Assembly (NCBI RefSeq): GCF_000317145.1
Contig: NC_019697.1
Location: 3,072,385-3,136,384, forward strand
From: Chamaesiphon minutus PCC 6605
GTDB taxonomy: Bacteria > Cyanobacteriota > Cyanobacteriia > Cyanobacteriales > Chamaesiphonaceae
Direction of reading: 5' to 3'
DNA length: 64,000 nucleotides
The notes beneath the pieces were generated by a model. It did not search any database. It was given only the letters and a program-made list of their open reading frames with translations, and was not told where the DNA came from. The position numbers and the translations under genes were made by a program. Shown in pieces: positions 54,894 to 57,451 of the stretch. Position 1 is the stretch's first letter. The number at the start of each line of letters is the position of its first letter.

Positions 54894-55331
54894 TCACTTG
54901 GCTGGCATCAATCCTAATTGCTGCATTAGTGCTAGCAAATTGCACTCATACCACCACTCAACAATCTTACTGTTAGAAATTTTGAGCAAGGTAAAATCAT
55001 TGATTTTGGCATGTTTACCAGTAGGTGGAATGCCTAAAAATTCGCCTGTATGGGTGCCTTGGATTGTGGTGCGATAGACCACTTTTTCGCCTTCGGCGAT
55101 CGTCTCCTCGATCGTCTGCTGAATATCTGGAAATCCTTCAAACAAGCTGGCATTAAAGGCTTTATTTGCTGCTAGTCCCACAATTGGTTCTGGGGAACTG
55201 TTGAAATGATGAATGACATCTTTACTCATTAATTCATCCCAAGCCTGTTGCCAATTAGGATTGGTGCCCCACCCTGCTGTCGCGAAACGGAGGGCGATCG
55301 ATTTGTTTTGTTCGATTTGAGTCATCATCAA
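54894..55331 (-). CDS. SnoaL-like ester cyclase family protein
   Basis: 145-aa protein of the SnoaL (NTF2-like) fold, families of which include polyketide cyclases and stress-linked enzymes. Seen: WDELMSKDVIHHFNSSPEPIVGL, PDIQQTIEETIAEGEKVVYRTTIQGTHTGEFLGIPPTGK, the G-x-H-x-G-E-F-x-G-I-P-P-T-G-K block typical of this group. Function unknown. It is divergent from a TetR gene with which it shares two operators, which suggests that TetR controls both. Confidence 0.85.
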   Translation of the reverse strand: MMMTQIEQNKSIALRFATAGWGTNPNWQQAWDELMSKDVIHHFNSSPEPIVGLAANKAFNASLFEGFPDIQQTIEETIAEGEKVVYRTTIQGTHTGEFLGIPPTGKHAKINDFTLLKISNSKIVEWWYECNLLALMQQLGLMPAK

Positions 55332-55348: not shown

Positions 55349-55414
55349 CAATACATTAGTGTATGGTGAGACTGTAGCAACCTCATTTGCCAACGTCAAT
55401 ACATAGGTGTATGG
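55349..55414. promoter_or_regulatory. Two palindromic operators between SnoaL and TetR genes
   Basis: CAATACATTAGTGTATGG (55349-55366) and CAATACATAGGTGTATGG (55397-55414) differ at only two positions inside a 4-nt core; arms are ATACA/TGTAT. Spacing is 48 bp start to start. The first lies 18 bp before the SnoaL ATG, the second overlaps the TetR ATG (55411). Typical of autoregulation by TetR (inference). Confidence 0.8.
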
Positions 55415-55965
55415 AAGTATCCAATCCCAAATTAGGGCGACAAGACTGGTTGAATGCGGCACTAGACACCTTTATGGCTAAGGGCATCGAAGCCGTCAAA
55501 GTTGATGCGATCGCCAAATCGCTCCAGATTACACGCGGTAGTTTTTATTGGCATTTCAAAAATCTCGACGATCTGTTGAATGCGATCGTCCAGGAGTGGC
55601 AGGCTGTCAATACCGAAGCTGTCATGCACCAAGTCGAAGCCGAAGGTGGCATACCAAGTCAGCGGTTATTGCACCTATTTAAAATTGCGGCGGAAGATGA
55701 CGATCGATTAGAGAAAGCAATGCGCATCTGGGCGATCCACGATATCCGAGCCGCCGCCGCGATCGAACGCGTCGATCGACAGAGACTAGCATATCTTCAG
55801 CACTTATTCTTACAAATTGGCTTCTCCCCAACCGATGCCGAGGTACGCGCGCAAGTGGCTTACTCCGTCCGCCTGGGGTGGTTCATCATGGCATTGCCCA
55901 CCACTCGATCGAAACGCCTGACTGAAATCCAACTCGTTCATACGATTTTGACTCAACAATCATAG
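55411..55965 (+). CDS. TetR-family regulator, divergent from SnoaL gene
   Basis: 184 aa from ATG 55411 (MEVSNPKLGRQDWLNAALDTF); an alternative at 55387 would put the operator inside the coding part. HTH: GIEAVKVDAIAKSLQITRGSFYWHFKNLDDLL (residues about 25-56). The C-terminal half is a TetR_C ligand-binding region (AMRIWAIHDIRAAAAIERVDRQR). The operator overlapping the start codon suggests tight self-control. It is followed after 152 bp by the rhodopsin gene. Confidence 0.88.
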   Translation: MEVSNPKLGRQDWLNAALDTFMAKGIEAVKVDAIAKSLQITRGSFYWHFKNLDDLLNAIVQEWQAVNTEAVMHQVEAEGGIPSQRLLHLFKIAAEDDDRLEKAMRIWAIHDIRAAAAIERVDRQRLAYLQHLFLQIGFSPTDAEVRAQVAYSVRLGWFIMALPTTRSKRLTEIQLVHTILTQQS

Positions 55966-56117: not shown

Positions 56118-56789
56118 ATGGTGCAAATTTGGCTTCAGATCGGTGTAGTCGGGATGATATTGGGCAGCCTAGTATTTGGCTTTGGTGCGAGTCGGGCCGC
56201 AGATCGACGATGGCAGATTCTATATACCTTGAACTTTTTTATCTGTCTGATTGCTGCGGGACTGTATCTAGCAATGTCTCTAGGGTTGGGCTTTCAAGTC
56301 ATTTACGATCGACCGACATTCTGGGTCAGATATATAACCTGGTTTTGCTCGACACCTTTACTGATCCTCGATCTAGCGTTTCTGGGTCGCACTAATTTAC
56401 CCATTACCTGTAGTTTGATTGGCGCGAATGCGTATATGATTGCAACTGGTTTTGTCGGTGCAATTACACCCAAACCAATGAATCAAATCTGGTATCTGGT
56501 CAGTTGTGGTGCGTTTATTGCTACGCTTTATCTATTGTTAAAGCCCTACCGCAGCCAAGCCGAACAGCACTACCCCCATGCCAAACAAGTATTTCGGAAG
56601 CTGTTAACCGCGCATGTCGTGCTATGGACTTTGTATCCTGTCGTCTGGATTTTGGCGGCGACTGGTTTGGGAGTGCTCAGTCAAGGGTACGAAACGATGG
56701 GCTACACGCTGCTAGATTTAGCTTCTAAGGTCGGATTTGGATTTTTATCGCTCAACTCGTTATACCAGCTAGAATCGCAAAAAGTTTAA
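56118..56789 (+). CDS. Microbial rhodopsin, cyanobacterial halorhodopsin type (TSD motif)
   Basis: 223-aa seven-helix retinal protein. Helix G holds the Schiff-base lysine K204 (LLDLASKVGFGFL) and D200 (bacteriorhodopsin D212). Helix C reads R71-Y-I-T74-W-F-C-S78-T-P ... D85, so the positions of D85, T89 and D96 of bacteriorhodopsin are T, S and D. T-S-D is the motif of cyanobacterial anion pumps such as those studied from Mastigocladopsis repens and Synechocystis PCC 7509; haloarchaeal halorhodopsin has T-S-A. Loss of D85 rules out the usual proton pump; inward light-driven chloride (or other anion) transport is expected. Helix F keeps LYPVVW; E192 matches E204. No retinal-forming oxygenase gene is in this window. 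Confidence 0.92.
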   Translation: MVQIWLQIGVVGMILGSLVFGFGASRAADRRWQILYTLNFFICLIAAGLYLAMSLGLGFQVIYDRPTFWVRYITWFCSTPLLILDLAFLGRTNLPITCSLIGANAYMIATGFVGAITPKPMNQIWYLVSCGAFIATLYLLLKPYRSQAEQHYPHAKQVFRKLLTAHVVLWTLYPVVWILAATGLGVLSQGYETMGYTLLDLASKVGFGFLSLNSLYQLESQKV

Positions 56790-56854
56790 AAAATTGATGG
56801 CTGATAATTGATAATTAGGAGTGTAGCGATCGCATCCCAACTTTTAGTTAGCTG

Positions 56855-57451
56855 ATGAAATTTCTTCACCGTTCCGATTTATTCTGTTGGTCTGAGTTCA
56901 ATTCCGAACGCAATATTGATTTTCATAGTATTGCCTGGATTCGAGCGGAGGGGAATGTTCTCATCGATCCGCCGCCCCTATCTGGAAACGATCTGGCACA
57001 TTTACAGTCGTTGGGTGGTACTAGCTGGATTGCGATCGCCAATTCCGACCATATTCGCGCCAGCGAGGAACTTGCTGCCAAAACAGGTGCCCAAATTGCG
57101 GCTCCGCAGGGCGAACGCGAAACATTCCCCATTGCTGTCGATCTCTGGTTGGCTGATGGCGATGCCATCGTCCCTGGGCTAGAGGCAATTGCATTACACG
57201 GTTCTAAAACCCCTGGCGAGTTGGGTCTTTTGTTGCAAGAAACTACCTTAATTACTGGCGATCTCGTCAGAGCGCATCGAGCTGGCTCGCTGATGTTATT
57301 GCCAGATGCTAAGTTATCCAATCGCGAGCTAGCACTGGCTTCGGTGCGAAGATTGGCAAAGCTAGACCGAATTGAAACGGTGCTAGTGGGCGACGGCTGG
57401 CATATCTTCCACCAGGGACATTTACAACTGCAAGCATTGTGCGCTCAATGA
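56855..57451 (+). CDS. Divergent metallo-beta-lactamase-fold protein
   Basis: 198-aa cytoplasmic protein with an MBL-like layout: IDPPPLSGNDLAHL, AIANSDHIRASEEL (relatives THxHxDH; here only D-H remains), ALHGSKTPGELGLLL, TGDLVRAHRAGSLML (TGD), and GDGWHIF (last His). Two metal His are missing, so it may bind one metal or none. 65 bp after the rhodopsin gene on the same strand, so perhaps co-transcribed; no direct link to retinal is visible. ATG at 56855. Confidence 0.75.
   Translation: MKFLHRSDLFCWSEFNSERNIDFHSIAWIRAEGNVLIDPPPLSGNDLAHLQSLGGTSWIAIANSDHIRASEELAAKTGAQIAAPQGERETFPIAVDLWLADGDAIVPGLEAIALHGSKTPGELGLLLQETTLITGDLVRAHRAGSLMLLPDAKLSNRELALASVRRLAKLDRIETVLVGDGWHIFHQGHLQLQALCAQ

Follow-up and report, generated by a model that had tools for sequence, protein, structure and literature searches.

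The 64,000-nt window analysed here (the whole stretch of DNA, G000:C1:3072385-3136384, taken from a 6.76-Mb genome of three contigs) carries at 56118..56789 on the + strand a genuine, intact cyanobacterial halorhodopsin (CyHR) gene, a further member of a known family. We infer the transport itself, and put at about 0.88 the probability that the protein is a light-driven inward chloride pump. Residue 182 at its anion entrance (codon 56661..56663, +) is Thr, as at the aligned Thr183 of the sulfate pump SyHR, whereas the halide-only pump MrHR has Glu182; no acidic residue thus stands at the position to which the mutants of PMC9525653 assign a role in anion entry. The original prediction, a TSD halorhodopsin with a linked metallo-beta-lactamase (MBL)-fold neighbour, stands in its first part and is not supported in its second, and it had overlooked T182 and its bearing on the choice of anion.

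The rhodopsin reading frame is full length, with 223 residues, seven helices and the retinal lysine K204. PF01036 (Bac_rhodopsin) matches residues 2-216 with an E-value of 7.9e-51, far past chance, and the best five entries in a sequence search of the PDB are those of MrHR and SyHR (E 1e-101 to 3.2e-97; next 3.5e-48). Aligned over nearly its full length, the protein is 68% identical to MrHR and 67% to SyHR. The residues on which the prediction was built are the same in both pumps: R71, T74, S78 and D85 in helix C (codons 56328..56372, +; TSD motif), and the counterion D200 and the retinal lysine K204 in helix G (codons 56715..56729, +). The domain match, this alignment, the tree and the structures all bear out that assignment. 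The His of the inner side (H166) and the outer Glu (E192) are both kept as well. A proton pump is ruled out, as position 74 has no Asp. A sensory rhodopsin was also rejected; the sensor-like rhodopsin of the same genome is a separate gene (L001).

An AlphaFold2 model, built with 27 window and locus sequences, has a mean pLDDT of 93.4 and shows seven helices with a BC-loop hairpin. Foldseek finds MrHR 6XL3 (rmsd 0.6) and SyHR 7ZOU (rmsd 0.7) closest to it, and VIA-align places the same six MrHR/SyHR entries on top, with Z-scores of 36.2 to 37.1, the latter being the highest obtained by the model; cyanorhodopsin-II comes next at 33.8. In a tree of 56 rows from which column 182 was left out, 49 CyHR rows separate from 7 outgroup rows with support of 99/99. 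The window protein lies within the same clade as MrHR and SyHR, outside the DTD/DTE pumps and the sensory rhodopsins, and pairs with L035 (100/100); deep order inside the CyHR clade is not resolved, and the long outgroup branches were flagged by the program. Two surveys attribute to the CyHR clade 24 of 56 cyanobacterial rhodopsin genes (PMC7541481) and 31 of 102 rhodopsin genes (PMC11528372). Our search of the literature, which covered the main texts of open papers, returned no publication on Chamaesiphon and rhodopsin.

On illumination, a retinal protein of this clade would carry an anion from the external medium into the cytoplasm. If it works as MrHR and SyHR do, chloride would lie near the protonated Schiff base at K204, held by T74 and S78; isomerisation of retinal would pass it into the inner-side H166 cavity, from which it would exit, and a new anion would come in via the outer basin, close to R71, E192 and position 182. 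With an uncharged T182, the pump lacks the charge that bars sulfate in MrHR; we therefore expect it to transport chloride and, to some extent at least, sulfate, the sulfate step being about an even bet.

The pump appears to have a source of retinal. The original prediction had observed that no retinal synthase gene is near, which holds within the window: all three RPE65-family matches in the genome are outside it. This is not a weakness, since the genome holds elsewhere a strong relative (L008 1426-2907; 613 bits, E 2.6e-183) of the Synechocystis apocarotenoid-15,15'-oxygenase 2BIW, and thus a carotenoid oxygenase of the kind that the prediction had proposed to look for; a genome with no retinal source, which would have told against the pump, is not what we found. 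The gene for this oxygenase, diox1, is reported in 152 of 154 cyanobacterial genomes (PMC7541481). The second RPE65-family match scores 239 bits. The third is partial and lies within an open frame of 805 codons (L005, G000:C1:5215619-5216359). A search of the genome for a BCD (Blh) retinal synthase gave no match, and neither did its controls. The genome encodes a second rhodopsin (L001 1237-2223 (-) and 844-1221 (-), within G000:C1:1524678-1528334), with a DTT motif, a Pro at the position of the counterion Asp, a reading frame that extends 87 residues beyond the Pfam match, and a PF07100 transducer (ASRT) gene right behind it. We take it to be of the Anabaena sensory rhodopsin type.

Is an uncharged residue at the entrance enough to admit sulfate? 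According to PMC9525653, the anions pumped by MrHR are limited to chloride and bromide, apart from a faint sulfate signal; on E182T mutation its relative sulfate activity climbs from 0.008 to 0.092, with Ser, Gln, Arg, Lys or Leu at this position about equal to Thr (data not shown there), and E182T combined with a five-residue swap in helix F raises sulfate activity again, to 17.4% of that for chloride. The same source reports that T183E or T183D reduces the sulfate activity of SyHR without abolishing it. Sulfate activities given in PMC11995866 are pH changes of E. coli suspensions and not direct transport. The sulfate determinant is disputed: in PMC9525653, N63A/P118A alone gave MrHR no gain, contrary to Yun et al., and PMC9617919, like Yun et al. 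whom it cites, attaches importance to how large the entrance is and not to charge alone.

Around the entrance, the window protein has Phe59, Tyr63, Ala115 and Pro118, where SyHR has Arg, Ala, Thr and Ala; the small residues of SyHR at 63 and 118 are thus replaced by Y63 and P118. The bulk of Tyr63 and Phe59 may narrow the mouth of the pump, and calls for caution on sulfate. Within residues 155-164, MrHR and SyHR differ at six positions; the window protein agrees with SyHR at four of them (A155, V158, K161, L163) and with MrHR at the other two (Q157, T164). K161, however, is also present in 17 of 18 rows with Glu at position 182, MrHR being the odd one, and is therefore not special to sulfate pumps.

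It is only a little less than an even chance that the protein pumps chloride and bromide alone, in the manner of MrHR, with Tyr63, Phe59 and Pro118 closing the entrance to sulfate despite the lost Glu. F59, Y63, A115 and P118 fit this reading, being unlike SyHR, in which R59, T115 and T183 are among the residues that line the outer basin (PMC9617919), as does the weight given to entrance size in the papers above. However, the A63N, A118P and double mutants of SyHR, which carry neither Tyr63 nor Phe59, did not pump less sulfate according to PMC9525653, where Doi et al. report the charge at 182/183 as the switch. We retain as our expectation a chloride pump with some capacity for sulfate.

A 2022 paper (PMC9617919) describes E182 as conserved, with replacement by Thr solely in SyHR. 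This fails for the sequences that we examined, since position 182 is Thr in 33, Ser in two and Glu in 18 of 53 distinct CyHR rows, and is uncharged in 37 of 45 genomes from two even draws. The 53 rows are the sequences with T74, S78 and K204, identical sequences being counted once; MrHR, SyHR (row L092) and the N-terminally short L035 are included. Left out of this gate count were L067, L001, L037 and L036, which are not of the family, L031 (in two pieces), L032, L033 and L106, which are split, short or frame-broken, and L101, L102 and L105, which lack T74/S78. The readable parts of L031, L032 and L033 have Glu at 182. L101 and L102, from two genomes of one genus, have an SSI motif with Ala at the gate, and L105 has TTV with Thr. 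D85 is present in all 18 Glu rows, which comprise MrHR, loci of Nostoc, Calothrix, Scytonema, Tolypothrix and Hassallia, and two genomes of family code f6. In two other loci (L058 and L063) the motif is TST, with Thr at donor position 85, outside the TSD, TSV, TSL and TSI variants given in PMC9617919.

The set of named loci is biased, having been retrieved with patterns drawn from MrHR, SyHR and the window protein, and the two even draws of genomes weigh more. Their counts are lower bounds, the genome search scoring candidates from a loose first look and the gate being read in matches at E <= 1e-60: the draw by class has CyHR in 29 of 388 genomes, with Glu in two of the 29 (L039, L040) and Thr or Ser in 27, and the draw by order in 19 of 388, with seven Glu, 11 uncharged (including two Ala, SSI variants) and one unreadable. 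Pooled, with three genomes common to both, the draws give 45 genomes, of which seven have Glu, 37 an uncharged residue and one an unreadable gate. All seven with Glu belong to family code f6 (three genera); the 37 uncharged ones are spread across nine family codes and 20 genera. In these sequences an uncharged entrance is the common state among CyHR, so that SyHR may not be an exception. It is a bolder and rather doubtful step to propose that sulfate-capable pumping is the common CyHR condition, of which the window protein would be a second natural example, and that MrHR is halide-only as a peculiarity of one group, in which Glu182 bars sulfate.

The outgroup bears on the origin of this Glu. 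In L067 to L070, four rows of DTD or DTE type, positions 182 and 192 are both Glu; in cyanorhodopsin N2098R this pair corresponds to Glu194 and Glu204 of bacteriorhodopsin and is putatively involved in proton release (PMC7541481). Two further rows depart from this at 182: L071 (DTS) has Lys, and L072 (TTG; genome G124), which is a distant rhodopsin, has Ala there and Gln at 192. On a simple reading, the release Glu of a proton pump would have been lost at the switch to anion uptake, with one group retaining or regaining it. A single clade is not rejected for the Glu rows (p-AU 0.374), nor is one for the Thr/Ser rows (p-AU 0.327).

The rhodopsin gene is followed, after a gap of 65 bp (56790..56854), by a gene for an MBL-fold protein of 198 aa (56855..57451, +), which we do not judge part of the pump. 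Both reading frames and the gap between them are located as the original prediction had them. The match to PF14597 (Lactamase_B_5) is strong (306.5 bits against a curated cut-off of 28.4, E 9e-92). The half-lost metal motif that had been described for it is confirmed: the canonical MBL motif is HxHxDH, and the protein reads NSDH and GSKTPG at the places of GHLDH and GHTPG in 2XF4, a distant enzyme that it matches weakly (E 0.012). PDB 2P97 (E 3.9e-78) has the same NSDH and GSKTPG letters, so that partial loss of the motif is not peculiar to this gene.

The original prediction also suggested that the two genes may be co-transcribed. They share a strand, and the gap contains no terminator-like site; one promoter-like site overlaps its start, the counts of such sites in the scanned region being not above chance. 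That the two form one functional unit is nevertheless most improbable. In a second genome of the genus (G001), the MBL gene lies beside rpoC2, but 3.8 kb and three phycobilisome-linker genes separate it from the rhodopsin. This locus (L073) is the only one of 31 other CyHR loci to share flanking genes with the window, namely rpoC2, the MBL gene and ribulose-phosphate epimerase (E <= 1e-10; flanks up to about 6-10 kb, ending at contig ends, some loci having been fetched twice). Outside the genus, the MBL gene is absent from the flanks (1.5 to 10 kb) of the CyHR loci examined, and in one set of CyHR loci the MBL protein had no match besides the window's own. Conversely, an MBL match of at least 240 bits occurs in seven of 11 genomes from the family, and no CyHR was found in five of these seven, three of the five being incomplete drafts. 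In short flanks of the MBL gene in other relatives, rpoC2 was not seen. Besides the rhodopsin itself, the first 18 neighbour clusters listed are common to at most 10 of 32 CyHR loci, the larger ones being shared among Nostocales-type loci. We rejected the MBL gene as a partner on the grounds of its separation in G001, its absence from other CyHR loci and its presence in relatives where no CyHR was found; it is probably no partner of the pump, and the neighbourhood looks like chance or a recent change.

The copy in G001 (L073 8303-8791) is 95.7% identical to the window rhodopsin over the shared 162 residues. With dN of 0.028 and dS of 0.41, and third codon positions accounting for 36 of the 47 differences, dN/dS is near 0.07 over the shared part and the gene is under purifying selection. 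However, the G001 copy starts at residue 62, its first 61 residues (helices A and B) being missing. The contig aligns with the window up to ~54849 and then again from ~56302, and has at this locus no counterpart of the first 61 rhodopsin codons or of the two genes upstream, which encode a SnoaL-like protein (54894-55331, -) and, back to back with it and just upstream of the rhodopsin, a TetR regulator (55387-55965, +). It is possible that the break is an assembly fault, G001 being a draft of 760 contigs, albeit with no N in the contig at this locus. CyHR is found in two of nine genomes of the genus (this one included) and in neither of the two from the family's other genus; two of these 11 are drafts less than 85% complete. 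Since the G001 copy lacks its first 61 residues and only two of nine genomes have the gene, it seems dispensable in the genus, several of these genomes being incomplete drafts. Split or shortened copies also occur in Scytonema hyalinum, Scytonema sp. NIES-4073 and Iningainema tapete (L031, L032, L033), through gene decay or sequencing faults. Taken together, the truncation, the sparse occurrence and these broken copies could indicate a gene decaying in the genus, with little or no working pump left. The window copy, however, is full length with all functional residues present, the shared part is under the selection described and the break in G001 may be an artefact; we consider a relic very unlikely, and a working chloride pump remains our reading.

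In the open main texts that we searched, SyHR is the only natural light-driven sulfate pump. Combined with the Thr-based account of SyHR, the Thr/Ser majority found here would predict many more. The behaviour of these relatives towards sulfate would tell whether light-driven uptake of sulfate is widespread in cyanobacteria or whether loss of the entrance charge is insufficient, and either answer would be useful for the design of anion pumps in optogenetics.

Among known systems, the closest is MrHR (MastR) of Mastigocladopsis repens (PDB 6XL3/6K6I), which shares with the window protein the TSD motif, R71, H166, E192 and P118 in addition to overall sequence and fold, and from which the latter differs by Thr182 for Glu, Tyr63 for Asn, Phe59 for Val and Lys161 for Thr. 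SyHR of Synechocystis sp. PCC 7509 (PDB 7ZOU) has in common the TSD motif, the gate Thr, Lys at the 161 position, the helix F His and the outer Glu; here the window protein has Tyr63 and Pro118 for Ala63 and Ala118, Phe59 for Arg59 and Gln157 for Lys158, and its loop ahead of helix E has one residue fewer. The haloarchaeal halorhodopsins (HsHR, NpHR) are likewise inward pumps with a Thr/Ser chloride site, but their motif is TSA where the window protein has D85, a Thr replaces the helix F His, and the outer Glu is not conserved (PMC11995866). Cyanorhodopsin N2098R (PDB 6LM0), an outward proton pump, is also cyanobacterial and has the same fold, with 40% identity, but it carries the proton acceptor Asp at position 74 and, at 182 and 192, the two Glu of the putative release pair (PMC7541481).
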